Source of the DNA: Desulfobacula sp.
Lineage (GTDB): Bacteria; Desulfobacterota; Desulfobacteria; Desulfobacterales; Desulfobacteraceae
NCBI GenBank assembly: GCA_028280105.1
Contig: JANQML010000179.1
Span: 1 to 64,000, forward strand
Length of the DNA: 64,000 nucleotides
Direction: 5' to 3'
How positions within the stretch are numbered: the stretch's first letter is position 1; each line of letters opens with the position of its first letter. A program made the position numbers and the translations under genes. The notes beneath the pieces were generated by a model. The model ran no database searches. It was given only the letters and a program-made list of their open reading frames with translations, and was not told the origin of the DNA. Positions 28,175-50,323 of this stretch are shown here, piece after piece.

Positions 28175-30796
28175 ATGAACGGCAATGATGCCAGAAAAAT
28201 TTTTGTAGAATATTTTAAAAAACACGACCACCAGCATGTCAGATCCTCTTCCCTGGTCCCCCAGGACGACCCGACCCTATTGTTTGTCAATGCCGGCATG
28301 GTACAGTTCAAACGGGTCTTTACCGGAGATGAAAAACGGGACTACACCACCGCCGTCACCCATCAAAAATGTGTCCGGGCCGGCGGTAAACACAATGACC
28401 TTGAAAACGTGGGGTACACGGCACGGCATCATACCTTTTTTGAAATGCTGGGAAATTTTTCCTTTGGAGATTATTTTAAGGAAAAAGCCATTGCATTTGC
28501 ATGGGATCTGCTCACCAACGGGTATGGGTTTGATCCGGAAAAACTGTGGATATCTGTTTTTGAAACCGATGATGAAGCCGCCGATATCTGGCACAAACAG
28601 GAGGGGATTCCGCTGGAACGAATTGTGCGGCTGGGTGAGGAAGACAATTTCTGGGCCATGGGAGACACCGGTCCCTGCGGTCCCTGTTCCGAGATTCACA
28701 TCGACCGTGGCGTTGAATTCGGCTGCGATGACCCGGCCTGTGCCGTGGGTTGCGACTGCGACCGGTGGCTTGAATTGTGGAACCTGGTCTTTATGCAGTT
28801 TGAACGGGATGAATCCGGCCATATGGAACCCTTGCCCAAACCCAGTATTGATACCGGGTTGGGGCTGGAACGGGTGATCTCCGTTCTCCAGGGCGTGGCC
28901 ACCAACTATGACACCGACCTCTTTATCCCCATCATGGAAAAAGTCGGAGAGCTGGCAGATAAAAAACGGCACGAATCCGACCAAGTGGAAGTGGCCATGA
29001 AGGTGATTGCCGACCATTCAAGAGCCACCGCCTTTTTGATTTCCGACGGGGTCCTGCCGTCCAACGAGGGTCGGGGATATGTGCTTCGCCGCATCATGCG
29101 CCGGGCCATCCGTTATGGGAGGAGCATCGGCCTGGTAAAACCGTTTCTGCATGAAACGGTGCAGACCGTTTTCGGCATTATGGAAGAGGCCTATCCCGAA
29201 CTTAAGGATTCAGGTGCATTTATCATCAATGTGGTGAAAAATGAAGAGGAAAAGTTCCTTGAAACCCTGGGAACCGGGATGAAGCTTTTGGAGGCGACCA
29301 TTGAAACCCTCCGGAAGGAGAATAAAACCGTCATTCCCGGCGACGTGATTTTTAAGCTATATGATACCTTTGGCTTTCCCGTGGATATCATCGTGGATCA
29401 CATCAAAGAGACGGAGATTGAACTGGATATGGATGGATTTGATGCGGCCATGGCAGAACAGAAGGCCCGTTCCAAATCCAAAGTCAAATTCAACGGTGTG
29501 GGCACGGCCTATCGGGAACTGACGTCGGCAGGTGTCAAAACTCCGTTTAACGGCTACGATAGAACCCGGGAGGAATCCGATATCCTGATCCTTGTCAGGG
29601 ATGACAAAGCGCTTGAATCGGCAGATCCGGGAGACCGGATTGAAATCGTCACGGCATCCACGGTCTTTTATGCAGAGTCCGGCGGCCAGGCCGGGGACAG
29701 CGGCATCTTTGAAAATGAAAACTGCCGGATAAAAATCGAGGATACGGTAAAAGACCCCACCGGCCTGATCATCCATAAGGGCGTTGTTGACAGAGGATCG
29801 GTCCGAAAAGGGGATAGGTTTACCTTAAAGGTGGATGAAACCAAACGCAGACAGACCGCTTTAAACCACACTGCCACCCATATTCTTCATTCAGCGCTGA
29901 GAACCGTTCTGGGAGATCACGTGAAGCAGTCCGGCTCCCTGGTGACCGATACACGGCTGCGGTTTGATTTTACCCATTTCAGCGCGGTTACGCCGGAAGA
30001 GATCAAGGCCATTGAGACCGAAGTCAATTTTAGAATTCGTGCCAACTATGCCGTTGAAACCAAAGAAATGGATATGGATGAAGCGGTGAAAGCCGGGGCC
30101 ACGGCCCTGTTTGAAGAAAAGTACGGGGATGTGGTCCGGGTGGTTTCCCAGGGAACATTCTCGTCAGAGCTTTGCGGGGGCACCCATACGGATCGTTCCG
30201 GCGATATCGGTCTGTTCAAGATTTTAACCGAAGGCGGGATTGCCTCCGGTGTCCGGCGTATAGAAGCCGTGACCGGTGAAACCGCGCTTGAATATGTCCA
30301 TAAAGATGAAGGTGTCCTTGCATGCACCGCCTCCCTGTTAAAAACCGGCAAAGACGGGCTTTCGGCCCGGGTGGAGACCCTTTTAAAAGAGAAAAAGGAA
30401 CTGGAAAAAGAACTGGAATCCCTGAAAGCTCAAATGGCTTCCAGGTCGGTTGACAATATCGGCGACGCCATCCGGCAGGTCAACGGGGTAAACGTCATCT
30501 CCCAACGGGTGAATATTGAAAATCCGTCCCAGCTTCGCGATCTTGCGGATAAGTTTAAAGCCAAAATCAAGTCCGGCGTGATATTGCTGGGTGCGGAATC
30601 CAACGGAAAAGCACTTTTAATCTCGGTGGTTACCGATGATTTGACCAAACAGTATAAAGCCGGGGATATCGTAAAAGCGGCGGCAGCCGTTGTGGGCGGC
30701 GGCGGCGGCGGCCGGCCGGACATGGCCCAGGCCGGGGGCACCCGGCCGGAACACCTTGAACAGGCCCTGGAATCTGTCTTTAAAACGATGTCATGA
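28175..30796 (+). CDS. alaS: Alanyl-tRNA synthetase
   Basis: FVEYFKKHDHQHVRSSSLVPQDDPTLLFVNAGMVQFK, HTATHILHSALR, CGGTH, C-terminal GGGGGGRPDMAQAGG. Confidence 0.98.
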   Translation: MNGNDARKIFVEYFKKHDHQHVRSSSLVPQDDPTLLFVNAGMVQFKRVFTGDEKRDYTTAVTHQKCVRAGGKHNDLENVGYTARHHTFFEMLGNFSFGDYFKEKAIAFAWDLLTNGYGFDPEKLWISVFETDDEAADIWHKQEGIPLERIVRLGEEDNFWAMGDTGPCGPCSEIHIDRGVEFGCDDPACAVGCDCDRWLELWNLVFMQFERDESGHMEPLPKPSIDTGLGLERVISVLQGVATNYDTDLFIPIMEKVGELADKKRHESDQVEVAMKVIADHSRATAFLISDGVLPSNEGRGYVLRRIMRRAIRYGRSIGLVKPFLHETVQTVFGIMEEAYPELKDSGAFIINVVKNEEEKFLETLGTGMKLLEATIETLRKENKTVIPGDVIFKLYDTFGFPVDIIVDHIKETEIELDMDGFDAAMAEQKARSKSKVKFNGVGTAYRELTSAGVKTPFNGYDRTREESDILILVRDDKALESADPGDRIEIVTASTVFYAESGGQAGDSGIFENENCRIKIEDTVKDPTGLIIHKGVVDRGSVRKGDRFTLKVDETKRRQTALNHTATHILHSALRTVLGDHVKQSGSLVTDTRLRFDFTHFSAVTPEEIKAIETEVNFRIRANYAVETKEMDMDEAVKAGATALFEEKYGDVVRVVSQGTFSSELCGGTHTDRSGDIGLFKILTEGGIASGVRRIEAVTGETALEYVHKDEGVLACTASLLKTGKDGLSARVETLLKEKKELEKELESLKAQMASRSVDNIGDAIRQVNGVNVISQRVNIENPSQLRDLADKFKAKIKSGVILLGAESNGKALLISVVTDDLTKQYKAGDIVKAAAAVVGGGGGGRPDMAQAGGTRPEHLEQALESVFKTMS

Positions 30797-31815
30797 CCGC
30801 CTATTTTATACGACGTTTACTGCTGGTGATACCGACCTTTCTGGGTATCACCATCATGGTGTTTACCATCACCCGCTTTGTGCCCGGCGGTCCCATTGAG
30901 CGGATTATTTCGGAAACCCGTTCACTCCAGGCCGGGTCATCGGCAGGGACTTCCGGACCCGGTGGGGCTCAGCCCCTTTCCGACGAACAGATTAAAGCAC
31001 TTGAGGCATACTATGGATTTGACAAGCCGGTTTTTACCGCCTATCTGATCTGGCTGGGCAAGGTTTTAAAAGGGGATTTGGGACAATCCACCCGATACTA
31101 TGATCCGGTCTGGGAGATGATACGGGAAAAGATTCCCATATCCCTGTATTTCGGAATCCTGACGCTTCTGCTGACTTACGGGGTCTGTATTCCCCTGGGC
31201 ATGGCCAAGGCCATTCGCCATAAGACCGGGTTTGACAATATTACCTCGGTCATTATTTTCATCGGGTATGCCATTCCCGGTTGGGTGGCAGGTGTTTTAA
31301 TGCTGGTGGTCTTTGCCTCCCACTATGACGTCTTTCCTTTGGGTGGGATGGTTTCGGATATGTTTGACGAGATGACCCCGGCCCAAAAAATCCTGGATAT
31401 TGCCCGGCATACGGCACTGCCGCTGTTTGCCTATGTGATCGGGTCCTTTACGGTGATGACGCTGTTGATGAAGAATACACTCATGGACAATCTGTCGTCC
31501 GACTATATCCGGACCGCCATTGCAAAGGGGCTGCCATTCAAAAAAGCCGTACTCAACCATGCCATGAGAAACAGCCTGATTCCCATTGCCACCAGTTTTG
31601 GAAACAATATCTCCATTATCCTCACCGGTTCGTTTCTGATTGAAAAGGTTTTCAACATCAACGGCATGGGACTGCTGGGGTATGAGTCGGTTCTGGACCG
31701 GGATTATCCCGTGGTTATGGGAATTCTTGTTATTTCTTCCCTGCTCTTTCTCATCGGAAACATACTTTCCGATCTCTGTGTGGCATGGGTCGATCCCAGG
31801 GTGAGGTTTAAATGA
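30793..31815 (+). CDS. Peptide-type ABC transporter permease, YejB/OppB-like
   Basis: Six-TM permease, LPFKKAVLNHAMRNSLIPIATSFG EAA loop. Confidence 0.9.
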   Translation: MTAYFIRRLLLVIPTFLGITIMVFTITRFVPGGPIERIISETRSLQAGSSAGTSGPGGAQPLSDEQIKALEAYYGFDKPVFTAYLIWLGKVLKGDLGQSTRYYDPVWEMIREKIPISLYFGILTLLLTYGVCIPLGMAKAIRHKTGFDNITSVIIFIGYAIPGWVAGVLMLVVFASHYDVFPLGGMVSDMFDEMTPAQKILDIARHTALPLFAYVIGSFTVMTLLMKNTLMDNLSSDYIRTAIAKGLPFKKAVLNHAMRNSLIPIATSFGNNISIILTGSFLIEKVFNINGMGLLGYESVLDRDYPVVMGILVISSLLFLIGNILSDLCVAWVDPRVRFK

Positions 31816-32858
31816 TTCACTTAAGTCCGGTCACCCTGAAAAAATTAAAGCGGTTTTACTCCATTAAGCGGGGATTCTGGTCGTTTGTCATTATTATGGC
31901 CATGATTTTGATTTCACTTTTTGCAGAGGTCTTTATCAATTCACGGGCCCTGGTGGTTAATTACAATGGAAATTTTTATTTTCCCACCTACGGGCGGATG
32001 ATTCCGGGCACCACGTTCGGACTGGATTATTCCTATGAAACCAATTACCGGGACTTAAAGAAGATATTTGACCGGGCAGATTCCGGCAATTGGGTCCTGA
32101 TGCCCCCGGTGCCGTTCAATCCCTATGAAAATGATTTAAAACTTGATGCGTTTCCGCCCTTCCCGCCGTCATTCAAGGACAAACATTTCTTTGGCACAGA
32201 CAATGCGGGCAGGGATATCCTGGCCCGGCTGGTCTACGGATTTCGAACCGCCATTGGATTTTCCGTGGTTCTTTTGCTGGTGACCTATACGGTGGGAATC
32301 GCACTGGGGTGTTCCATGGGCTATTTTGGCGGCAAGTTTGATCTCTTTTTTCAACGGATCATCGAAATATGGACCAATATTCCGGTTCTCTATGTCATTA
32401 TTATTATTGCATCGGTCCTGATCCCCAACTTTATGGTGCTGCTGCTGATCATGTCCTTTTTCGGCTGGACCGGCATGACCTGGGTCATGCGCACCATGAC
32501 CTACAAGGAAAAGGAAAAGGAGTATATCCTTGCGGTGAAATCGTTGGGAGCCTCCCACGCACGGATTATTTTCAACCACATCATCCCCAACACCATATCC
32601 GTGATCGTCACCTATGCACCCTTTGCCATATCCGGCGGCATTGTGTCGCTGACATCTCTGGATTATCTGGGATTCGGCCTTCCCGCACCCACCCCGTCCT
32701 GGGGAGAGCTGCTTGCCCAGGGATGGCAGAATATGAATGCCTGGTGGATTGTTTCATCCGTGGTAACGGCCATGATTATCACACTCATGACCGTTACTTT
32801 TGTGGGAGAAGGGATCCGCGAAGCCTTTGATCCCAAGCTTCATACGATTTATGAATAA
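31812..32858 (+). CDS. Peptide-type ABC transporter permease, YejE/OppC-like
   Basis: Long YejE-like N-terminal insertion (NYNGNFYFPTYGRMIPGTTFG), FFGTDNAGRDILARLVYGFRTAIGFS. Confidence 0.9.
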   Translation: MIHLSPVTLKKLKRFYSIKRGFWSFVIIMAMILISLFAEVFINSRALVVNYNGNFYFPTYGRMIPGTTFGLDYSYETNYRDLKKIFDRADSGNWVLMPPVPFNPYENDLKLDAFPPFPPSFKDKHFFGTDNAGRDILARLVYGFRTAIGFSVVLLLVTYTVGIALGCSMGYFGGKFDLFFQRIIEIWTNIPVLYVIIIIASVLIPNFMVLLLIMSFFGWTGMTWVMRTMTYKEKEKEYILAVKSLGASHARIIFNHIIPNTISVIVTYAPFAISGGIVSLTSLDYLGFGLPAPTPSWGELLAQGWQNMNAWWIVSSVVTAMIITLMTVTFVGEGIREAFDPKLHTIYE

Positions 32859-37054: not shown

Positions 37055-37182
37055 TGGGCCAGGGGTTTCACGGAGTGAAAATATCCGGCAGGTATGGTAA
37101 AAATCAGGGATCTGTAGTATTCGTTTAACATTGGGATCAGACAGGGGAACAGAGCCGATGATGAAAGGAAAAAAGAGAGTTG

Positions 37183-38589
37183 ATGAATGAAAATATACCG
37201 TCAATGCAGGCCCGGATTCTGGTCGTGGATGATGATGAAGCCATCAGGGACGCATTAAGACTGATCCTTGAAGACGATTATGAGGTGTTTTGTGTTGACA
37301 GTGGCGTCAAGGCATTGGAAAAAATACAAAAACAGGCATTTGATCTTGTCTTTCTGGATGTCATGATGCCGGAAATGGACGGGATTGAAACCCTTAAACG
37401 GATCCGGGCCTATGATAAACAACTGGACGTCATCATGGTATCGGCTGTTGACCGCGCACAGGAGGCCACCTATTCCATCAAACTGGGGGCTTACGATTAT
37501 ATTACCAAACCCTTTGACCATGAAGTCATATTGAACCGGGCGGAAAAGGTGGTTGAGAAACGGAGCCTGACCAAGGAGGTGAAGTTTCACAGATCCCAGG
37601 CAGCCACCGACTCATGGAAAAATACGATCATCAGCAATTCAAAAAAGATGGCCAATGTATTCGACCGGATATCAAAGGTGGCGGAAACATCCAGCAATGT
37701 ACTCATCACCGGTGAGAGCGGAACCGGGAAAGAACTGATTGCCAAGGCCGTTCACACGGCAAGCCTTCGCAAGGATCATCCCTTTGTCGCCATCAACTGT
37801 GCCGCGATTCCGGCCGAGCTTTTGGAGGCGGAACTGTTCGGCCATGAAAGAGGATCTTTTACCGGGGCCCATAAACAGACCATCGGCAAGTTTGAATTTG
37901 CCCACCAGGGCAGTATCTTTCTCGATGAAATCTCCAGCCTGAAATTCGAGTTTCAGGCCAAGCTGCTTCGGTTTATCCAGGAACGTGAATTTGCCCGTGT
38001 GGGCAGCCACCAGACTATCAAGGTCGATGTCCGGATCATTGCCGCCACCAATACCAGCCTTGAAGATATGGTCAAGGAGGGGACCTTTAGGGAAGATCTT
38101 TTTTTCAGGCTCGATGTGGTGCCGATATTGCTGCCGCCGCTCCGTCATCGCGAAGGGGATGTCCGGCTGCTGGCCGATTTTTTCCTGGAGCGGTTCAGCC
38201 GCCAGATGAACAAGACGGTTAACGGATTCACACCTGAAGCCGTTGAGGTTCTGGAAGCTTACCCCTGGCCCGGCAATATACGCGAACTGGAGAACCTGGT
38301 GGAACGGATGGTTGTTCTGGGATCGGAAAAACGGCCCATCGATGAAAAGGACCTCCCCTTTGACCTGCTGTTCCACAATGAGTCGCTTTCAGATGCCCAG
38401 GGGGACCGGGACGAGAATAAAGGGCTGATGCAGGCCAGGCAGTCTTTTGAAAGGCTCTATATCCTGCGGGCTCTCCAGAACTGCCGGTGGAACCAGACCC
38501 GGGCTGCCGACCTGCTCGGAATCCACAGAAATACCCTGATCCAGAAAATGAAGACAATGAGCCTGAACCGGGAAAAACCCGAGGAATAA
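37183..38589 (+). CDS. NtrC-family sigma54-dependent response regulator
   Basis: REC (ILVVDDDEAIRDALRLIL), AAA+ (GESGTGKELIAKAVH, ELFGHERGSFTGA), Fis-type HTH (NQTRAADLLGIHRNTLIQKM). Confidence 0.95.
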   Translation: MNENIPSMQARILVVDDDEAIRDALRLILEDDYEVFCVDSGVKALEKIQKQAFDLVFLDVMMPEMDGIETLKRIRAYDKQLDVIMVSAVDRAQEATYSIKLGAYDYITKPFDHEVILNRAEKVVEKRSLTKEVKFHRSQAATDSWKNTIISNSKKMANVFDRISKVAETSSNVLITGESGTGKELIAKAVHTASLRKDHPFVAINCAAIPAELLEAELFGHERGSFTGAHKQTIGKFEFAHQGSIFLDEISSLKFEFQAKLLRFIQEREFARVGSHQTIKVDVRIIAATNTSLEDMVKEGTFREDLFFRLDVVPILLPPLRHREGDVRLLADFFLERFSRQMNKTVNGFTPEAVEVLEAYPWPGNIRELENLVERMVVLGSEKRPIDEKDLPFDLLFHNESLSDAQGDRDENKGLMQARQSFERLYILRALQNCRWNQTRAADLLGIHRNTLIQKMKTMSLNREKPEE

Positions 38590-38592
38590 GAA

Positions 38593-38613
38593 AAGCACGG
38601 TTAGAAGGTGCTT
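38593..38613. terminator. Short stem-loop between convergent RR and HK genes
   Basis: AAGCAC-N9-GTGCTT. Confidence 0.45.
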
Positions 38614-40474
38614 AAGAGAACGTTGGCAGACGGATTGAAAAACAGGCACCGTCTCCTTCCTTGCTTTCTGCAGAGATCTGTCCCTTATGCTCTGAAACCA
38701 CTTTATGGGTGATGGCAAGTCCCAGTCCCGTCCCCTTGGCTTTGGTGGTAAAAAACGGGTGAAAGATATTGGCTGCCAGCTCTTCTGAAAAACCATGGCC
38801 TGAATCTTTAAAATGAATATGGATCGACGCATCCCCGGCTTTGGCACGGATGCTCAGGTTGCCCCCCTCGGGCATGGCCTGGGCGCTGTTTTGAATCAGA
38901 TTGATAAATACCTTTTCAAGCTGGTTGGCATCGGCCATGACCAGGGGCAGGTCCGGGGCAAGAATACTTTGGCATTCAATACGGTTTCGGTTCAGATCTG
39001 CCGACATCAGTTCGATGCAATGGGTCAGCAATTCTGCGATATCGGTTTGTCTGAATTCATACTTGGGCTGTCTTGCCAATTCCAGCAGCTCTTCAATCAG
39101 GGCATTGAGCCGGTTGATCTCCCGTTGGACCGTTGTTTGGAATTTGTCCATAAAACCGGGCTTTGAAATTTTATGAGGCAGCAGGTCCACAAAGGTCTTA
39201 ATGGCAGACAAAGGATTCCGGATTTCATGGGCCATCCCGGCTGCAAGCGTTCCAAGGTCAGCCAGCCGCTGGGTCTGGCGCACCTCTTTTTCAAGCTCCT
39301 TTAGAATGGTGATATCACTGAGGTTGAATATGATCTGCCTGGGGGTGTTGGGAGCTGCATCCAGCAAACTGGCGCGGACTAAAATGTTCCGGGTTTCATT
39401 GTCTTTAAGGTGATGGATCTCTTGCTGGTCGGATCCGGACCAGGTTTTAAGTGCATCCTGGATATAGTCTGAAACCCGGGTGTTTGAATCGATCAGTTCC
39501 CGGACCGGGCTGCCCTTTACATCCCGGCCGGTGTCAATGTCCAGGATGGCCCGGGCAGCCGGATTGATTGCGGCAACCATACCGTCCATATCAACGGCCA
39601 GAAGGCCGTCACCCATGGTTGCCAGGATCTTTTCCGCGTACTGCTGTAACCGTTTTATCTCTTCCAGCTGATCTTTTAATTGCAGTTTTTGGGCAAGGAC
39701 TTCCCGGATCATAATGGAAAAATTCGATGCCAGGATCTCAACTTCATCCCGGGTCTGAATGGAGAATGTCTGATCCAGATTTCCCCGGGCTGCTTCAACA
39801 CTCGCATTTACAAGGGTCTCCAACGGCCGGGTCACCCGCTGGGCTGTCCAGTTGGAAGTCAAAATCCCCACTCCCAGTGCCATGAAACCCAGGAGAAGAA
39901 TACTCCATAGTGTCTGGCGAAACTGCTCATACATCGGTTCAAGGGAGAGGCAGACCCGGACGGTTCCCCACCGGTCCCCGGAATCGGCAAGAATCACCGG
40001 TGTGGACACATCCATCACTTTTGACTCTCCTGGCTCAGGGCGATGGATTTTGATCAAAGGGGCGGCTGCCTCAACCGCTGCCGTGCTGACCGGGTCGGTC
40101 AGGGTTTGATATTGCAGATCCGGCCTGTTGCTGTATCCGGCCACCCTGCCTTCTTTATCATGGATGGCAACATATATGATATCCGGGTTATGAACCGCCT
40201 GGTTGGCCATTCTTTCCAGTGCAATATAATTGTAGGTGAGCAGGTATTCAATGGAAATATCTGCCAGGTATCTGGAGAGCCCGATTCCCTGGTTTTCAAT
40301 CCGTTCCCGGATGGTCCGGGTCTGCAATACGCTTAATACGGCCGTCAGGATCGACAGCAGCAATAAGAGCATAATGGATGTAATCAGGATAAACCGGTAC
40401 CGGAGCGGCATAAATCCGGACCTTTTCAATACCTGGCTGATTTTTACCGGCATGTTGTTAGATCTTTTTTTCAA
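38612..40474 (-). CDS. Membrane sensor histidine kinase (periplasmic domain-HAMP-PAS-HisKA-HATPase)
   Basis: Two TM segments, HAMP (RVTRPLETLVNASVEAARGNLDQTF), MAHEIRNPLSAIKTFVDLL H-box, GTGLGLAITHKVV. Confidence 0.93.
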   Translation of the reverse strand: MKKRSNNMPVKISQVLKRSGFMPLRYRFILITSIMLLLLLSILTAVLSVLQTRTIRERIENQGIGLSRYLADISIEYLLTYNYIALERMANQAVHNPDIIYVAIHDKEGRVAGYSNRPDLQYQTLTDPVSTAAVEAAAPLIKIHRPEPGESKVMDVSTPVILADSGDRWGTVRVCLSLEPMYEQFRQTLWSILLLGFMALGVGILTSNWTAQRVTRPLETLVNASVEAARGNLDQTFSIQTRDEVEILASNFSIMIREVLAQKLQLKDQLEEIKRLQQYAEKILATMGDGLLAVDMDGMVAAINPAARAILDIDTGRDVKGSPVRELIDSNTRVSDYIQDALKTWSGSDQQEIHHLKDNETRNILVRASLLDAAPNTPRQIIFNLSDITILKELEKEVRQTQRLADLGTLAAGMAHEIRNPLSAIKTFVDLLPHKISKPGFMDKFQTTVQREINRLNALIEELLELARQPKYEFRQTDIAELLTHCIELMSADLNRNRIECQSILAPDLPLVMADANQLEKVFINLIQNSAQAMPEGGNLSIRAKAGDASIHIHFKDSGHGFSEELAANIFHPFFTTKAKGTGLGLAITHKVVSEHKGQISAESKEGDGACFSIRLPTFS

Positions 40475-40501: not shown

Positions 40502-42148
40502 TCATTTGTTGATGGTGGCATCCAGCCATATCTGATTCAGTCGGGTGGCCTGGGTACCGAAAGCACCTATACTGATGGATTGAACATGGGGCTGATAGAC
40601 CCGGTTCACATTCATATAAAAAAGAGGGATCACCGGAGTTAAATCCAGGATGGCCGTCTCAATTTTCTGGTACATCTTTGCCCGGTTTACCGGGTCGACA
40701 ATCTCCCGTGCAGCCGTTAACATGGCATCAATTTCCTGATTTTTCAAGTTCATAAAGTTATGAGCGGAACCGGAAAAAAACAGAGAGGATAAAAAACTGT
40801 CCGGATCAGGCATGTCTGCATACCATGCCAATCTGTAGATTTGTGCGGCCCCGGTTTTTAAATAAGATTGAAATTCTTTCCAGTTGGTAATGTACTTGGG
40901 CCTCACTTTTACGCCCAAAGGAGCCCAGAGTTGCTGAATCAGTTCCATTTCTTTTTCAACTCTGGGAGTCATAGCCGCCGATACAATTTCCAGTTCGAGC
41001 TTTTGCATGTGAAAACCGGGTGTTTTAGTATTCGATTCAATCCATCGTTGCACTGATTTTGGAGTGGTATCTTTTATGGGGTCAAGACGTTGATATCCGG
41101 CCATTCCCGGCGGCAAGATGGTTTTCGTCTCCTGATGTCTTCCATCATAGATGTTATTGATTAGTGCATTACGGTCAATCGAATCAGACAATGCCTTTCG
41201 AAGATCAGGATTTAAAAGATGGGGGTGACGGATATTTAGACCGTAGAAGAACAGGTTCATTGAGGAACGATGAAACCATTGAAGTCCTTTTAACCCGGCA
41301 AGCTCTTTCTCTATATTTGCGTATACGGTCATCTCTTTCAGCCGGTTCTGTTTAAAATCATTCAGTTTAAGTTGGCTTTGTCCTCCTGGATAAATACGGT
41401 AAAGAATTTCATCAAGGTAAGCCGGTCTTCCATAATAATGTTTAAACCGACGAAGTCGAATGACTTTAGTGTCTTCCCAGGAAACAAACTGAAACGGGCC
41501 GCTTCCCACGGGATGCTTTCCAAACGCATCCCCCATTTGTGATACCGCTTTCTCAGGAACGATTGCCGTCTGATACATTCCCAGAGCGGTTAAAAACGGT
41601 GCATGGTTTTTTTTCAAGTGAATAGAGAATTTTTTTTCATTTTCAATTTTAATTCCCGTAAGGGTGTCGAGGAGTTTCATCCGGTATTCATCGGCTCCCG
41701 TGATTTTCAACAGGTGCTGCAATACGGCACTGGGCGGTTCTGTCCGCAGTAGCCGTTTGAGGGTGAATTCAACATCTCCGGATGTGACAGGGGCATGGTT
41801 GTGAAAAACAGCTTCTTTTAATTTGAATCGATATACTCTTCCCTTCTCGGTCACCTCCCAGGTCTCTGCTAATGCAGGTACAACAGACAGATTAGAATCA
41901 AATCTTACAAGCCTGTCAAATACCTGCTGACTTACTGATCCACTGTATTTGTCTTGGGCGTAGGCCGGATCAAGGGTCGTGGGGTTATGGTCTAATGGTT
42001 TTTGATAAATGCCGCCATATGTGGGTGTTTTTTGGGGTAAGGCCGGTAGTGTGGATATCTTTTCTTCAGAATCTGAACAGCCTGAAATAAAAAGGCAAAA
42101 AAAAGATATACAGATGAAACAGATACCGGACAGTCCTAAACGATTCAT
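40502..42148 (-). CDS. Family-5 extracellular solute-binding lipoprotein (paralog 4 of 4)
   Basis: Lipobox ISGC; SBP_bac_5 features (DPAYAQDKYSGSVSQQVFDRLVRFD, VGSGPFQFVSWE); ATG at 42148 with gagga SD. Confidence 0.92.
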   Translation of the reverse strand: MNRLGLSGICFICISFFCLFISGCSDSEEKISTLPALPQKTPTYGGIYQKPLDHNPTTLDPAYAQDKYSGSVSQQVFDRLVRFDSNLSVVPALAETWEVTEKGRVYRFKLKEAVFHNHAPVTSGDVEFTLKRLLRTEPPSAVLQHLLKITGADEYRMKLLDTLTGIKIENEKKFSIHLKKNHAPFLTALGMYQTAIVPEKAVSQMGDAFGKHPVGSGPFQFVSWEDTKVIRLRRFKHYYGRPAYLDEILYRIYPGGQSQLKLNDFKQNRLKEMTVYANIEKELAGLKGLQWFHRSSMNLFFYGLNIRHPHLLNPDLRKALSDSIDRNALINNIYDGRHQETKTILPPGMAGYQRLDPIKDTTPKSVQRWIESNTKTPGFHMQKLELEIVSAAMTPRVEKEMELIQQLWAPLGVKVRPKYITNWKEFQSYLKTGAAQIYRLAWYADMPDPDSFLSSLFFSGSAHNFMNLKNQEIDAMLTAAREIVDPVNRAKMYQKIETAILDLTPVIPLFYMNVNRVYQPHVQSISIGAFGTQATRLNQIWLDATINK

Positions 42149-42170
42149 TTTTGTCCTCACAAAGAACGAT

Positions 42171-43787
42171 TTATTTATTTAAGTTTTTATCCAGCCATAT
42201 TTTATTCAATTTTGTGGCATGGGGACCTATGGCATTTATGTTGATCGATTGAACATGGGGCTGATAGACCCGGTTTGTATCCATATTAAATAATGGAATG
42301 ATCGGAGCGGCTGCCAGGATACGGGTTTCGATTTTCCGGTAGATCTCTGTCCGTTCTATCGGATCGAGAATTCCCCGGGCGTCTGACAGCAGGACGTCAA
42401 TCGTTTCATCATTCAAATTCATATGGTTATGGGCGGCATCAGACGAAAAAAGAGAGGAGAGAAAGCTGTCCGGATCAGGCAGATCCGCATGCCAGCCGTA
42501 CCGGTAGATTTGAACGGCATCAGACCTTATATAAGATGTAAATTGTTTCCAGTCCATGATGTATTTGGTCTGAATGGTGATGTTCAAAGGCGCCCAAAAT
42601 CTTTGTATGAGTTCTATTTCTCTTTTAACCCTGGGCGATTTTCCAGCCGATACAATTTCAATCTCCAGCGGTTGCCGCTGCAAAGAGGATGACGGATAGG
42701 AAGCTTTTACAGGATCAAAGCGCTGATGTCCATCCATCCCCGGCGGCAGGATGGTTTGGGTCGCCTGGTATTTTCCGCCGTAGACCGTGTTGACAAGGGT
42801 CTGGCGGTCAATTACGGCAGATAACGCGTTTCGAAGGCCGGGATCCTCAAGATGGGGATAACGGATGTTGATGCCGTAGAAAAAAAGACTCATTGAAGGC
42901 TTATGAATCCATTGCAGCCCTTTAAATCCGGCAAGTGCCTCCTGGGCATTCCCAAATACTGTCATTTCATCCAGTCGGCTATTCTTAAAATCGTTCAACA
43001 CAGCCTGGTTTAGCCCGTCGGGGTAGATACGGAAGTAGATTCCATCCAGACGGGCCGGTCCCCCATAATAGGCGTTGAACCGGTGGAGCTGAATAGCCCG
43101 TTCATCTTCCCATGAAACAAATCTGAACGGGCCGCTTCCCACGGGGTTATTACCAAAGGTATCTCCCAGCCGCATGACGGCATTTTCCGGAACAATGGAC
43201 ACCTGGTACATGCCCAGTGCGGTTAAAAAAGGCGCATGGGGTTTTATAAGATGAATCGAAAAGTTTTTCTCACTCTCAATCTGGAACCCTGGAAGGGTGT
43301 CGCGGGTTTTATTCCTGTACTCAACAGCTCCGTCTATTTTCAGCAGGTGTTGTAAAACAGCACTGGGCGGCTCTGCCCTCAGCAGTCGCTGGATGGAAAA
43401 ACAGACATCATCGGCAGTCACCGGTTCCTGGTTATGAAAAACAGCATCTTGCCTCAATTTGAAGGTATAGCGCGTTCCCTTCTTTACCTCCCAGGTCTCT
43501 GCCAGAGCCGGTAAAATGGACAGATAGGGGTCGAACCGCACAAGTCCGTCAAAGACCTGGTGAACCACAAACTCGCCAAAATTGTCTTGCACATAGGCCG
43601 GGTCAAGGGTAATCGGGTTGCCTCTTAGTGGAATCCGGTATATTCCGCCATGAACAGGTGGTTTTTGTGGGGGAACTGCCTGAAGTCCAACTCCCTCAAT
43701 CTCTTCCGGATTTGAACAGCCCTGGAGCAAAGGTAAAAGAAAGAATAGACTGACAAAACAAATAAAGGATTGTTTAAGAGGGTTCAT
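42171..43787 (-). CDS. Family-5 extracellular solute-binding lipoprotein (paralog 3 of 4)
   Basis: Lipobox LQGC; closely similar in sequence to the neighbouring SBPs. Confidence 0.92.
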   Translation of the reverse strand: MNPLKQSFICFVSLFFLLPLLQGCSNPEEIEGVGLQAVPPQKPPVHGGIYRIPLRGNPITLDPAYVQDNFGEFVVHQVFDGLVRFDPYLSILPALAETWEVKKGTRYTFKLRQDAVFHNQEPVTADDVCFSIQRLLRAEPPSAVLQHLLKIDGAVEYRNKTRDTLPGFQIESEKNFSIHLIKPHAPFLTALGMYQVSIVPENAVMRLGDTFGNNPVGSGPFRFVSWEDERAIQLHRFNAYYGGPARLDGIYFRIYPDGLNQAVLNDFKNSRLDEMTVFGNAQEALAGFKGLQWIHKPSMSLFFYGINIRYPHLEDPGLRNALSAVIDRQTLVNTVYGGKYQATQTILPPGMDGHQRFDPVKASYPSSSLQRQPLEIEIVSAGKSPRVKREIELIQRFWAPLNITIQTKYIMDWKQFTSYIRSDAVQIYRYGWHADLPDPDSFLSSLFSSDAAHNHMNLNDETIDVLLSDARGILDPIERTEIYRKIETRILAAAPIIPLFNMDTNRVYQPHVQSININAIGPHATKLNKIWLDKNLNK

Positions 43788-44025: not shown

Positions 44026-45693
44026 TCATTTTCGTAAACCCGGATCCAGCCATATCTGATTCAACTTTGTGGTATGGGGACCCAGTGCACTGATACGCGC
44101 GGATCTGACATGGGGTTGATAGACCCGGTTTTCATTCATATAAACCAAGGGAATGATCGGAGTGGCTGCAAGAATTTCAGCCTCAATTTTTTGATAAACC
44201 TCTGCCCGTTTTATCGGATCAATAATTTCCCGGGCATGTGACAACCGGGTGTCAATCGCTTCATCTTTCAGGTTCATAAAGTTATGGGCTGCATCGGATA
44301 GGAATAGAGAGGACAAAAAACTGTCCGGATCAGGCATGTCCGCATGCCAGCCATACCGGTAGATTTGAACGGCATCAGATCTTAAATAGGATTGAAATTC
44401 TTTCCAGTCGGTAATGTATTTGGGCCGAACAATGATGCCCAAAGGGGTCCAAAATTTTTGTATAAGTTCTAATTCTTTTTCAACCCTGGAAGTTTTTACA
44501 AGCGATACAATCTCAATTTCCAGCTTTTTTTGATGCAATGGGGATGATTCTATATATGGTTTCAAAAAATTTTGTGAAGAAACCGAATGTTTTTTTTTTA
44601 CAGGGTCAAAACGCTGGTGTCCGGTCATCCCCGGCGGCAGGATGGTTTGGGTTACCTGGTATTTTCCGTCATAGACCTTGTTAACAAGGGTATGGCGGTC
44701 AATGGCTGCTGATAATGCCTTTCGGAGTCCGGAACTCTCAAGACGGGGATGGCAGATGTTGATACCGTAAAAAAATAGGCTCATTGAAGGCTCATGAAAC
44801 CACTGAAGCCCTTTTAATTCTGATAGTTCCTCCTGGTCATTCCCAAATACCGTTATTTCATCCAGCCGGTTGTTTTTAAAATCATTTAAGATGGCCTGGT
44901 TTTGTCCGCCGGGATAGATACGAAAAAGGATTTCATCCAGGTAAGCCGCCTCCCCATAATAGGCATTGAACCGGTGGAGCTGAATAGCCTTTTTGTCATC
45001 CCATGAAACAAATCGGAACGGACCGCTTCCCACGGGATGCCTGCCGAAGGCATCTCCCAATCGCATGACCGCTTTTTCAGGGACAATGGATGCCTGGTAC
45101 ATGGCCAGGGCGGTTAAAAAAGGCGCATGAGGGGTTAAAAGGTGAATCGAAAATTTTTTTTCAGTTTCAATTTTGAATCCTGAAAGGGTGTCCCGGGTTT
45201 TATTCCTGTACTCAACAGCACCTTTTATTCTCAACAGGTGCTGTAAAACCGCACTGGGCGGCTCCATCCGTAACAATCGTTTGAGGGTAAACCTGACATC
45301 TTTGGCAGTAACCGGGTCCTGGTTATGAAAAACAGCGTTTTGTTTTAATTTAAAAGTATAAACTTTTCCATTGTTTACCTCCCAGGTCTCTGCCAGTGCC
45401 GGCAAAATAGACAGATAGGGGTCAAACCGCACAAGGCCGTCAAAGATCTGATGAACCACAAACCCGCCATAAGTACCCAAAACATAAGCCGGGTCAAGGG
45501 TAATCGGGTTGTTTGCCAGTGGAATCTGATAACTACCACCATGAGCAGGAATCTTTTTGGTTGGGGGCGTGTTTGATTCCTTTTTATTTTCTTGGTTTGA
45601 ACAGCCTGGAATCAATTTGCAAAGAAACAATAGAGCAATAAAGCAGAAAAAAAGCCGTTTGATACTGTTTATTTTTTTTATACGATTTTTCAT
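44026..45693 (-). CDS. Family-5 extracellular solute-binding lipoprotein (paralog 2 of 4)
   Basis: Lipobox IPGC; closely similar in sequence to the neighbouring SBPs; internal ATG at 45693 preferred. Confidence 0.92.
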   Translation of the reverse strand: MKNRIKKINSIKRLFFCFIALLFLCKLIPGCSNQENKKESNTPPTKKIPAHGGSYQIPLANNPITLDPAYVLGTYGGFVVHQIFDGLVRFDPYLSILPALAETWEVNNGKVYTFKLKQNAVFHNQDPVTAKDVRFTLKRLLRMEPPSAVLQHLLRIKGAVEYRNKTRDTLSGFKIETEKKFSIHLLTPHAPFLTALAMYQASIVPEKAVMRLGDAFGRHPVGSGPFRFVSWDDKKAIQLHRFNAYYGEAAYLDEILFRIYPGGQNQAILNDFKNNRLDEITVFGNDQEELSELKGLQWFHEPSMSLFFYGINICHPRLESSGLRKALSAAIDRHTLVNKVYDGKYQVTQTILPPGMTGHQRFDPVKKKHSVSSQNFLKPYIESSPLHQKKLEIEIVSLVKTSRVEKELELIQKFWTPLGIIVRPKYITDWKEFQSYLRSDAVQIYRYGWHADMPDPDSFLSSLFLSDAAHNFMNLKDEAIDTRLSHAREIIDPIKRAEVYQKIEAEILAATPIIPLVYMNENRVYQPHVRSARISALGPHTTKLNQIWLDPGLRK

Positions 45694-45754
45694 ATATACA
45701 GCTGAATCTTGTTTTTGGTTTAACATACCTGCGAGGTAAATTTATTTTTTCAAC

Positions 45755-47395
45755 TTATTGATCCAGCCAGATTTGGTTCAATTTCACTGTATGATGGCCC
45801 AATGCACTCACATTGATGGATTGAACATAGGGTTGGTAAACCCGGCTCACGTTCATATGAAAAAGAGGGATTACCGGGGTGACAGCCAGAATATCTGTCT
45901 CAATTTTTCGATACATCTCAGCCCGCTTTATTGGGTCGGAAATTCCTCGGGCAGTCGACAACATGTTGTCAATATTTTTATCTCTCAGGTTCATGAAATT
46001 GTGGGCGGCGTCGGATAAGAAGAGAGAGGAGAGGAAACTGTCCGGGTCCGGCATATCGGCAAACCATGCGTACCGATAGATTTGGGCAGATCCGGATTTT
46101 AAATAGGATTGGAATTCATTCCAGTCAGTAATGTATTTGGGCCGGACGGTTATGCCCAGCCGAGCCCAGAACCCCTGAATGATGGCAATCTCTTTTTCAT
46201 CCCAGGGTGTCTTTGCGGCTGATGCAATCTCTAATTCCAGATTCTGCGGATCTCCACCCACTGTTTGGCCATCCTGTTTCAGTAAAGTTTGTACTAAACT
46301 TGTTTCTTTATTGTCTTCAGCAGGAGAATTAGGTTGATACCCTGGCATCCCTGGTGGCAGAATTGTTTTGGTCACTTGGTATTGGCCGCCAGTTAGTGTA
46401 TTTACAAGTTCAATGCGGTCAATGGAATTAAAAAGTGTTTTTCGAAGATCCGGGTCAGTAAGGCGGGGATGACGGATGTTTATACCATAGAAAAACAAAC
46501 TTAGCGAGGGGCGCTGAAACCATTGAAGATCTTTCAATTCGGAAAGTTTCTTTTTTTCATCTCCGTGTGCGGTCATTTCTTCGAGACGTTTGGCTCTGAA
46601 ATCATTTAAGATAGCCTGGTTTTGTCCCCCAGGATAGATACGAAAAAGGATTTCATCAAGGTAAGCTGTTCCGTCATGGTAGTTTTCGAACCGATGAAGC
46701 CGTATAGATGCTTTGTCCTCCCAGGAAGTCAATTGGAAAGGTCCGCTCCCTACGGGATTCTTTCCAAAAGCCTCCCCGAGCATTTTGACGGCTTTTTCAG
46801 GTACAATGGAAGCCTGATACATTCCCAAGGCAGCTAAGAACGGGGCGTGAGGTTCCAAAAGATAGATGGAGAAAGTTTTTTCATTTTCAATTTTAATACC
46901 TGAAAGGGTGTCACGGATGTTCATTTTATATTCGTTTGCTCCATCGATTTTCAACAGATGGGGTAACACGGCACTGGGTGGATCCACCCGCAGTAGCCGT
47001 TTGATGGAAAACAGGACATCTTCTGAAGTGACAGGCTCTTTGTTGTGAAAAACTGCATTGTCTTTTATTTTGAATTTATAAACTGTCCCTTTTTCGGTTA
47101 CCTCCCAGGTCTCTGCCAATGCCGGTAAGATAGATAGGTAATTGTCAAACCTGACAAGCCCGTCAAAAATTTGGTGAACTACAGATTCTCCAAAATTATC
47201 ATGGACATAGGCAGGATCAAGGGTAGCAGGGTTACCCTTTAGGGGAATTCGATAATTGCCGCCATAGAAAGGTGTGCTTTTTGATGAAACCGCTGTTGCA
47301 TTTTCATTCTCTTCCTGGTTTGAACAACCCGGGAGTAGTACGTTAAGAAAAAACAGGCTAACAAAACAGAGGCATGACAACTTAAAACGGTTCAT
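45755..47395 (-). CDS. Family-5 extracellular solute-binding lipoprotein (paralog 1 of 4)
   Basis: Lipobox LPGC; MNRFKLSCLCFVSLFFLNVLLPGCSNQ start at 47395 preferred. Confidence 0.92.
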   Translation of the reverse strand: MNRFKLSCLCFVSLFFLNVLLPGCSNQEENENATAVSSKSTPFYGGNYRIPLKGNPATLDPAYVHDNFGESVVHQIFDGLVRFDNYLSILPALAETWEVTEKGTVYKFKIKDNAVFHNKEPVTSEDVLFSIKRLLRVDPPSAVLPHLLKIDGANEYKMNIRDTLSGIKIENEKTFSIYLLEPHAPFLAALGMYQASIVPEKAVKMLGEAFGKNPVGSGPFQLTSWEDKASIRLHRFENYHDGTAYLDEILFRIYPGGQNQAILNDFRAKRLEEMTAHGDEKKKLSELKDLQWFQRPSLSLFFYGINIRHPRLTDPDLRKTLFNSIDRIELVNTLTGGQYQVTKTILPPGMPGYQPNSPAEDNKETSLVQTLLKQDGQTVGGDPQNLELEIASAAKTPWDEKEIAIIQGFWARLGITVRPKYITDWNEFQSYLKSGSAQIYRYAWFADMPDPDSFLSSLFLSDAAHNFMNLRDKNIDNMLSTARGISDPIKRAEMYRKIETDILAVTPVIPLFHMNVSRVYQPYVQSINVSALGHHTVKLNQIWLDQ

Positions 47396-47501: not shown

Positions 47502-47544
47502 AAACTAAAAAACACGGCAATGATTCTGCCGTGTTTTTTAGTTT
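47502..47544. terminator. Strong bidirectional terminator
   Basis: Perfect inverted repeat aaactaaaaaacacggca / tgccgtgttttttagttt. Confidence 0.9.
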
Positions 47545-47582: not shown

Positions 47583-47693
47583 TTAAGGGTATGAACTGCC
47601 GCTGGCGGAAGCCAATACCGGCAAGGCATGTCCGGCAACAATCAAGCCAGTAACGAATGCGGAAATCATAAAATTTTTAATAGTCTTTTTCAT
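47583..47693 (-). CDS. 36-aa putative secreted micropeptide precursor MKKTIKNFMISAFVTGLIVAGHALPVLASASGSSYP
   Basis: aaggag SD 6 nt before ATG; Lys-rich n-region, hydrophobic core, VLA-SA/ASA-SG cleavage-like sites; followed by a strong terminator; below the ORF-track cutoff. Confidence 0.7.
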   Translation of the reverse strand: MKKTIKNFMISAFVTGLIVAGHALPVLASASGSSYP

Positions 47694-47780
47694 GGTTTTT
47701 CTCCTTTGTTTGTTAACAGATGAATTTTCTGATAACGGTTTAAATTTATTCAGTTTTTTGCTTTATGGCCTATATAATTA

Positions 47781-47795
47781 GCAAAAGGAGGACCA
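47781..47795 (-). promoter_or_regulatory. Candidate sigma54 (-24/-12) promoter for the micropeptide gene
   Basis: Minus strand TGGTCC-N5-TTGC with exact GG-N10-GC spacing, 88 nt upstream of the ATG. Confidence 0.5.
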
Positions 47796-47892
47796 TGGTT
47801 ATTTTTTTTTTAAAAAAAAAATTAAGTATTTGAAAAATAAGAACTATTTTTTTACTACGGGTTGAATGGCAAGAAAGAGTAAGTATTCGCAA

Positions 47893-47910
47893 TGCACAGG
47901 CTTATGTGCA
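47893..47910. promoter_or_regulatory. Palindromic activator-site candidate (UAS 1)
   Basis: TGCACA-ggctta-TGTGCA. Confidence 0.6.
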
Positions 47911-47993: not shown

Positions 47994-48013
47994 TTGCACA
48001 TTTAAATGTGCAA
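47994..48013. promoter_or_regulatory. Palindromic activator-site candidate (UAS 2)
   Basis: Perfect 20-bp palindrome TTGCACATTTAAATGTGCAA; same half-sites and N6 spacing as UAS 1. Confidence 0.7.
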
Positions 48014-48210: not shown

Positions 48211-48225
48211 TGGCACATTTATTGC
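48211..48225 (+). promoter_or_regulatory. Sigma54 (-24/-12) promoter
   Basis: TGGCAC-attta-TTGC, matching the consensus TGGCAC-N5-TTGC. Confidence 0.8.
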
Positions 48226-48347: not shown

Positions 48348-48524
48348 ATGAATGATTCTACATCAGAACAAAAGGTTGGGGTGGCGGTAAATACTGATAG
48401 CCGGAGAGACAGGGCTCAATCCCACGCAAACCCGTTACATGAAAATGGATTCTCTCTGGCATTGAAAGATTATTTTGACTTTCTTAGAAAAGAGGAAACA
48501 CCTCCTGAGAACCAGGCTGTTTAA
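48348..48524 (+). CDS. 58-aa sORF with DYFDFLR motif shared with the downstream kinase N-terminus
   Basis: MNDSTSEQKVGVAVNTDSRRDRAQSHANPLHENGFSLALKDYFDFLRKEETPPENQAV; 120 nt downstream of the sigma54 element; upstream aaaaagga. Confidence 0.65.
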   Translation: MNDSTSEQKVGVAVNTDSRRDRAQSHANPLHENGFSLALKDYFDFLRKEETPPENQAV

Positions 48525-48685: not shown

Positions 48686-50323
48686 GTGAAAAATAAGAAC
48701 GTCGATTTTTTAAACCCGCCTGTTGAGTGCAAACCGCCGACTCCGTTGATGAACGATTATTTCGACTTTCTCAGAGAATCACAGGCCGGAGAATACGACC
48801 ATTTACCCTTTGGATTTATCACTCTGAGTAAAAAAGGCATTGTAAAGTACGTTAATACGGCCGCCTCCAAGCTATTGCAGGTGGAGAAGCGCCACTTGAC
48901 AAACAACCGGTTTTATCCGTACGTACATGCGGATGACCTGGAAAAAATCAAATACAATAAACAATCCAGGAACCTGGATTTTCCAAAAACCGCAGACATC
49001 CGGTTGATCTGCAGGCATGCTGTATTGTTGACAAGAATGAGTATTTCCTATGATCCTTATTTCAAATCTGCATACGGACCGATTCAGCTCAGTTTTTGTG
49101 ATATCACTGAGGTAAAACCCGTAGCACCGGAAAAAAAGGAATCAGATCAAGATCAGACCCCGGATCAAAAATCGGATCAAAAATCGGATCAAAAAAAAGC
49201 GGCCGTCGGCGTATTCTCAAATAATATGGCCCGTGATTTTAAGACGATTCTAAATTCGATCATTGCCAATATAGATACCGTCATTAACGAGACATCCGGC
49301 CATCCGGAGGTCCGGAAAACGCTGGATGAAACAGTAGCAGCTGCCAAAAGAGCCGGTGAAATGGCCACACAGATTTTCAGCTTGACCCATCCGCCCGGTT
49401 ATGATGCCTCTCCGGTCAGGGTTCAGGAGATTGTGCGGGAGGTGATCCACGTATACCGGGATATGGAATCAAAGAATATCATTATGATTCAGGTTATTGA
49501 TGATGAATGCGGACCGGTCATGGCCAATCCCACCCATATTTACCAAATTGCAATGAACCTGGTCACAAACGCGATTCAGTCAATGGCACCGCAAGGGGGA
49601 ATGCTTGATATAATGGTAAAACAGGTGGTTCCGGCACGGGAAGTTGTAAAAAAGACAGATTTGACTGCCGGACCTTATTGCTGTCTGACTGTCCAGGACA
49701 CAGGAGCGGGTATTGATGATACCATTCAGGACAAAACGCTTGATCCGTTTTTTGCACCCAAAAAGAATACAGACGGGGAAACCAGGGGGCTTAGCTTCTA
49801 TGTCATTTCCGATATTGTTAAAAATAACGGCGGTGACATTTGGTTAACCAGTGAACCGGGAAAAGGAACACGGTTTGATGTTTACCTGCCGTTGTCCGGA
49901 GATTCAAAAGCACGAAACACTTGTACAGATAAAAAAAAGAAACCCTTTTCCGGAGATGAATCCATCCTCTTTATCGACGATGATCCGGCAATTGTAAAGG
50001 TCCAAAAAAGAGCGCTGGAAGGGTATGGATACCGTGTTACCACCCATACGGACACGCGGGATGCCCTGGTTGATTTCAAGTCCGGTGCCCAGACCTTTGA
50101 TATTGTCATCTGCGATATGACCATGCCGGTATTGAACGGATTGAAATTTGCCCGGCTTGTCAAAGATATCCAACCGGATTTACCCGTGATTATCAGCACG
50201 GGTTTCAGCCCGGAGATTAACGAAGACAACTACCGGGAAATGGGGGTTGACGGGTTTTTAATGAAACCGGCCAGCAAAGACGAATCCCTCAGGCTCATCC
50301 GCCATATCTTGGATCAAAAATAG
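48686..50323 (+). CDS. Cytoplasmic hybrid histidine kinase (PAS-HisKA-like-HATPase-REC)
   Basis: GTG start with aagga SD; ATPase (VTNAIQSM, VQDTGAGIDDTI), receiver ILFIDDDPAIVKVQKRALEGYGY...VICDMTMP. Confidence 0.88.
   Translation: MKNKNVDFLNPPVECKPPTPLMNDYFDFLRESQAGEYDHLPFGFITLSKKGIVKYVNTAASKLLQVEKRHLTNNRFYPYVHADDLEKIKYNKQSRNLDFPKTADIRLICRHAVLLTRMSISYDPYFKSAYGPIQLSFCDITEVKPVAPEKKESDQDQTPDQKSDQKSDQKKAAVGVFSNNMARDFKTILNSIIANIDTVINETSGHPEVRKTLDETVAAAKRAGEMATQIFSLTHPPGYDASPVRVQEIVREVIHVYRDMESKNIIMIQVIDDECGPVMANPTHIYQIAMNLVTNAIQSMAPQGGMLDIMVKQVVPAREVVKKTDLTAGPYCCLTVQDTGAGIDDTIQDKTLDPFFAPKKNTDGETRGLSFYVISDIVKNNGGDIWLTSEPGKGTRFDVYLPLSGDSKARNTCTDKKKKPFSGDESILFIDDDPAIVKVQKRALEGYGYRVTTHTDTRDALVDFKSGAQTFDIVICDMTMPVLNGLKFARLVKDIQPDLPVIISTGFSPEINEDNYREMGVDGFLMKPASKDESLRLIRHILDQK

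Follow-up and report, generated by a model that had tools for sequence, protein, structure and literature searches.

The window, the whole 64,000-nucleotide stretch of Desulfobacula sp. DNA analysed here, carries a small gene whose product may well be a secreted signal sensed by the products of its neighbours. We give a probability of roughly 0.6 to the explanation that the peptide is exported by the Sec pathway, induces its own synthesis and is sensed through a solute-binding protein (SBP), a kinase and a regulator, a scheme in which we infer the binding and the sensing. As read from sequence alone, the locus has a conserved and apparently translated ORF, linked to SBP, kinase and regulator genes, and a sigma-54 promoter architecture with paired palindromes. 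The parts of the peptide gene in the window are as follows.

47583 to 47693, minus strand: 36-residue peptide precursor MKKTIKNFMISAFVTGLIVAGHALPVLASASGSSYP, with a Shine-Dalgarno sequence, homologues and purifying selection
47701 to 47707, minus strand: Shine-Dalgarno sequence AAAGGAG, kept in relatives too
47502 to 47544, minus strand: intrinsic terminator between the peptide gene and the SBP genes, found at the same place in relatives

The sequence-only reading had reported this ORF with a Shine-Dalgarno sequence, a strong terminator of its own and a position upstream of four binding lipoproteins, and all of this was borne out. Re-checking the sequence gave exactly the same 36-residue frame, AAAGGAG lies 7 nt before the ATG, the terminator has an MFE of -31.5 kcal/mol (z -5.8, with 0 of 200 shuffles as good), and an array of four SBP_bac_5 lipoprotein genes begins with the next gene on that strand. 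The likely start of this first SBP is the ATG at 47395 rather than the mechanically called GTG at 47515, which probably leaves 187 nt between the peptide stop and the SBP start. Inspection by eye showed a lysine-rich n-region, a hydrophobic core and P-V-L-A, a putative n-h-c signal sequence. Searches of Pfam and NCBIfam gave nothing usable, with one weak PtrA match (E 0.07) below the cut-off, and Rfam gave no family above threshold, only sub-threshold matches from AT-rich sequence. The peptide gene thus belongs to no protein-family library searched, and annotation probably missed it owing to its small size. No second copy was found in the window's own genome.

Comparisons with other genomes showed that the ORF is real and more than chance, one divergent member of a family new to the libraries searched. 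Of the 97 relatives' genomes searched by BLAST with the window peptide as sole query, 21 (the window's own among them) contain homologues of 30-37 residues, and inspection added two further relatives. The family consensus is MKKLxVxLFVIGVLVAGYAxPVLA followed by xGGGGP(x); the copies from the 97 relatives all have a strong Shine-Dalgarno sequence and differ little in sequence (MKKLxVxLFVIGVLVAGYAMPVLA, then xGGGGP and sometimes one more residue). Because the query has no GGGGP, the search could not have picked these relatives for their tail. Scanning one genome from each of 84,980 species with a pattern gave 25 loci, among them Desulfocicer vacuolatum DSM 3385 and Desulfobacula and Syntrophobacteraceae MAGs. 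Profile searches at phylum and class level brought in four more families, with tails such as CGGGGD, CGGGGN and QGGGGA; one family has the tails EGGGY, EGSGY, EGGGW, ESGGW and TGGGW. Judged by these matches, the peptide family spans at least five families of Desulfobacterota. Several lineages carry two or three copies in tandem. About a quarter of the copies have Cys at +1 (PVLAC), which resembles a weak lipobox; the other copies have S, G, N, T, E or R there, so lipidation cannot be general.

The coding region bears the marks of selection on a protein. Across 35 copies pN is 0.20 against a pS of 0.68 (pN/pS 0.30), and pN is smaller than pS in 595 of 595 pairs. The four Gly codons are interchangeable across copies, showing synonymous variation. 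The pN of the tail itself is biased downward because part of the copies were collected with the tail pattern; the signal-sequence part alone gives 0.21 against 0.68. Alignment of 16 close copies showed conservation of the promoter, Shine-Dalgarno sequence, coding region and terminator but not of the UTRs. By this codon-level comparison, the peptide ORF appears to be translated and is under purifying selection.

The peptide gene is embedded in a conserved neighbourhood, which in the window comprises the following genes.

45755 to 47395, minus strand: first SBP, a family-5 solute-binding lipoprotein starting at ATG 47395
44026 to 45726, minus strand: SBP paralogue (SBP_bac_5)
42171 to 43787, minus strand: SBP paralogue
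40502 to 42160, minus strand: SBP paralogue
38612 to 40474, minus strand: histidine kinase with sCache_3, HAMP, PAS, HisKA and HATPase domains, its orthologue following the SBP in relatives
37180 to 38589, plus strand: NtrC-type response regulator with REC, sigma-54 AAA+ (GSFTGA) and Fis HTH domains, with an orthologue in relatives
48686 to 50323, plus strand: divergent PAS-HisKA-HATPase-REC hybrid kinase sharing the enhancer region

The regulator has the full NtrC-type set of REC, Sigma54_activat with a GAFTGA-like loop (GSFTGA) and Fis HTH; in the window it is convergent to the SBP and kinase genes, and the hybrid kinase is divergent. A conserved SBP gene adjoins a kinase and a regulator, as in three-component systems. 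Nearly all loci examined show the gene order regulator-peptide-SBP-kinase, or a version of it in which the regulator is placed at the opposite end, and truncated contigs account for the gaps. An SBP orthologue, defined by at least 45% identity, is present in 25 of the 97 relatives. The peptide is found in all 23 of these that have upstream DNA present, the contigs of the other two ending there, and in 0 of the 72 relatives lacking the SBP (Fisher p 3e-20, not corrected for the kinship of the genomes). Among apparent SBP-only relatives, G059 and G076 proved to carry the peptide, the contigs of G011 and G036 end at the gene, and the SBP of G067 belongs to another subfamily and lies beside an HD-GYP protein. 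The patchy presence even within the genus suggests that the peptide and SBP are gained and lost as a pair. Lack of conservation with the SBP cluster had been named beforehand as a ground for abandoning the signal proposal, which came through this comparison strongly: the linkage holds across at least five families, and among the 97 relatives the peptide never occurs without the SBP. The sole exception to the linkage is an extra tandem pair in G096, a genome that also has the standard locus. The pair (L236, 7242-7337 and 7452-7547) consists of orphan family peptides ending in GGGGPW and sits between a PEP-CTERM-like protein gene and pilT genes, with no SBP or kinase nearby.

In relatives, a conserved AAATTTGG..ACTTGCATATAA lies 3' of the peptide terminator and before the SBP start, and is likely a separate promoter of the SBP and kinase genes. 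In the window, a 58-residue ORF (48348-48524, plus strand) ends in DYFDFLRKEE, which resembles the N terminus of the hybrid kinase at 48686; it is perhaps a truncated duplicate of that kinase under the divergent sigma-54 promoter.

The region between the peptide and the hybrid kinase contains the following control elements.

47780 to 47795, minus strand: sigma-54 promoter (-24/-12) of the peptide, TGGTCCTCCTTTTGCT, the same element lying 76-104 nt upstream of relatives' peptides
47820 to 47838, minus strand: AT-rich, tentatively IHF-like element between enhancer and promoter, TTTCAAATACTTAA; a similar ATTTCAAATAGTTAT in most relatives
47893 to 47910, no strand assigned: enhancer palindrome TGCACAGGCTTATGTGCA
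47995 to 48012, no strand assigned: enhancer palindrome TGCACATTTAAATGTGCA
48211 to 48225, plus strand: divergent sigma-54 promoter TGGCACATTTATTGC toward the hybrid kinase gene

Of the 38 first copies with enough upstream DNA, 34 have a -24/-12 element TGG(T/C)-N7-TTGC at 76-104 nt before the ATG, and two more have one 209-236 nt upstream. Upstream of the promoter there are typically two palindromes TGCACA-N6-TGTGCA, ~100 bp apart, and seven relatives also have the divergent enhancer-promoter pair toward the hybrid kinase gene in the same region. A generic scan had scored the palindromes near the peptide as terminator-like; they look like sigma-54 enhancer sites instead. The exact palindrome occurs one to three times per genome in 13 of 14 whole genomes and eight times in G078, with one or two of the occurrences at the peptide in nearly all of the 14; a reversed control pattern occurs in none. 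Since the palindromes are nearly unique in each genome, the main target of the regulator appears to be the peptide together with the divergent hybrid kinase. From position and co-conservation we infer that the regulator binds the TGCACA-N6-TGTGCA palindromes. The peptide, with a sigma-54 promoter and palindromic enhancers upstream, appears to be the regulator's principal predicted target, whether it is a signal or a mere output.

Most extra matches to the enhancer and promoter patterns lie in coding sequence and look like chance rather than a wider regulon. In G078, large secreted FG-GAP-repeat proteins (L127 and L133) have sigma-54 sites upstream, each preceded by TGCACA-N6-TGTGCA at a distance of ~200 bp; at L125 the palindromes are farther off, with no strict promoter found. 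These proteins are a possible surface-protein output of the module in that genome. In G002 (L126, 7174-7400 and 6279-7007, minus strand), an enhancer and a sigma-54 promoter precede a radical SAM gene with an apparently truncated frame.

The SBP models as a peptide binder of the DppA/OppA type. It matches Pfam PF00496 with E 1.5e-70 and has the fold of that family, and its closest solved structures by sequence are DppA proteins. Structural comparisons of its AlphaFold model (pLDDT 86.6) gave peptide complexes as the nearest folds, among them STSA-bound H. pylori DppA and B. subtilis OppA bound to a tetrapeptide or to the PhrE pentapeptide, together with MppA and PrgZ. D487 is the equivalent of OppA-Asp419/DppA-Asp408, the Asp that anchors the ligand α-amino group, and is kept in 40 of 41 SBPs. 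No ABC permease or ATPase genes are linked in the relatives' clusters examined; thus, the SBP is probably one part of a sensor, a role like that of CuaD (PMC10384115) and of the chitin-binding protein of Vibrio (PMC10667598). In the window, oppB/oppC-like permease genes lie ~8 kb beyond the SBP array (30793-32858, plus strand), a placement not linked in relatives.

The window copy is atypical. The mature tail proposed from the window, SGSSYP or SASGSSYP, is indeed present there, but it is an exception, nearly all relatives having xGGGGP, xGGGGD/N/A or EGGG(Y/W). The window tail SASGSSYP, not GGGGP, appears to be derived from S-GGGG-PY, and the start codon is shifted four codons upstream relative to relatives. 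The four window SBPs form one clade (100/100) with a long stem inside the genus, and both lineages with changed tails (the window and f53) lie on long SBP branches; the long-stem clade and the new tail fit a ligand and receptor changing together. For the window the SBP/regulator divergence ratio is 1.81-1.97, compared with 1.59 in other pairs; the excess is only modest, since the module as a whole has diverged there. Window pairs give pN 0.34 against pS 0.63; relaxed selection on the window peptide is possible, and its tail may be decaying.

In the proposed mechanism, the precursor would be exported by Sec and cut by signal peptidase I behind PVLA (for the window copy, behind VLA or ASA). The cut would release a peptide of 5-8 residues, ~430-600 Da in typical forms and small enough for porins. 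The orphan family-5 SBP would bind the peptide and touch the Cache-domain kinase, which would phosphorylate the NtrC-type regulator; on TGCACA-N6-TGTGCA, the regulator would activate transcription by sigma-54 of both the peptide gene and the divergent hybrid kinase gene, and this hybrid kinase would pass the output on. The window lineage has a changed tail and a quadruplicated SBP. Because the regulator would activate the peptide gene, the loop is probably autoinducing, a population- or diffusion-sensing circuit. The sequence-only reading had proposed a precursor of a signal sensed by the SBP, kinase and regulator; the linkage and the sigma-54/enhancer circuit, which it had not seen, lend this partial support, with the tail that it named being the exception.

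The near-invariance of the GGGGP tail over great distances counts against a signal, since most private quorum peptides are not so constrained. The causal direction could run the other way, with the peptide as no more than the output of a system sensing a different cue. In this main rival, the SBP and kinase would sense another ligand (e.g. environmental oligopeptides or murein peptides), and the induced peptide would act elsewhere, perhaps on other cells or the envelope. The peptide's place as main predicted target, the murein-peptide SBP MppA among the closest folds, and the few other genes of G078 and G002 with the same enhancer and sigma-54 site all suit it. However, a mature product of 5-8 residues leaves little room for another function, and the strict peptide/SBP linkage and the long SBP branches of the changed-tail lineages argue against it; we consider this reading unlikely.

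Still less likely is that the product stays uncleaved, as a small membrane protein with a single pass and a periplasmic GGGGP tail that would modulate the kinase directly. Other bacteria do have small membrane proteins that regulate kinases, and the hydrophobic stretch of the peptide is itself conserved across the family, but the near-invariant P-V-L-A agrees with cleavage by signal peptidase I (Pro -4, Val -3, Ala -1), and the orphan SBP would be left without explanation. A predicted short monocistronic transcript with its own terminator 5' of the SBP recalls the similar control layout of the Vibrio Qrr sRNAs, so the transcript might function as a small RNA dependent on sigma-54, or as a leader or attenuator for the SBP genes, with the ORF secondary. 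The codon pattern and the conserved coding region between unconserved UTRs argue against any RNA or attenuator; together with the pN/pS of 0.30, the lack of an Rfam family at threshold and conservation of the protein rather than the RNA sequence, they make this very improbable. A chance ORF or a remnant of a larger gene would agree with a length of only 36 residues and no library match; homologues, synteny, the promoter and purifying selection leave it scarcely credible for the window, and conservation rejects a chance ORF for the family as a whole.

The signal reading combines features of several known systems. In Vibrio LuxP/LuxQ-LuxO-Qrr, an enzyme produces AI-2, the Qrr RNA is non-coding and LuxP comes from another SBP family. 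That system shares with the present locus a periplasmic binding protein, a kinase, an NtrC-type regulator and a very small gene under a sigma-54 promoter, whereas the small gene here is protein-coding. DppA, OppA and AppA (SBP_bac_5) share the fold and the Asp that anchors the peptide N terminus; however, the relatives' clusters have no ABC transporter, and the SBP precedes a kinase. CuaDSR of Ruminiclostridium cellulolyticum is a sugar-sensing SBP-kinase-regulator system (PMC10384115), and the Vibrio chitooligosaccharide-binding protein is a sugar-sensing SBP working with ChiS (PMC10667598, PMC7564644). In both, an SBP works with a histidine kinase to report a ligand, as proposed here, but they have no peptide gene, whereas this locus includes a tiny Sec precursor and a sigma-54 activator as regulator. 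The RRNPP quorum systems of Firmicutes (SHP/Rgg, PrgQ/PrgX with PrgZ, Phr/Rap; PMC10075063, PMC7564271) likewise use a short linear peptide from a tiny precursor gene beside the receptor system, and the family-5 SBPs PrgZ and OppA bind such peptides. Their receptors are cytoplasmic and need Opp import, whereas here no permease is linked and a periplasmic SBP with a kinase is proposed, in a Gram-negative. No RRNPP-type cytoplasmic HTH/TPR receptor lies beside the propeptide gene, the neighbours being the SBP, the kinase and the NtrC regulator. No description of the module was found in the papers searched.

Peptide quorum sensing is the textbook Gram-positive mode. We rate at slightly better than even the broader proposal that Gram-negative Desulfobacterota share peptide signalling across the phylum, with a Sec-made oligoglycine peptide (xGGGGP and variants), an orphan SBP and kinase, sigma-54 autoinduction, and a nearly shared 'language' over large distances with lineage-specific switches such as that of the window. 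If true, sulfate reducers and their relatives, ecologically central anaerobes, would gain a peptide signalling channel through an autoregulated precursor-SBP-kinase-regulator module, one that would be testable with cheap synthetic 5-7mers.
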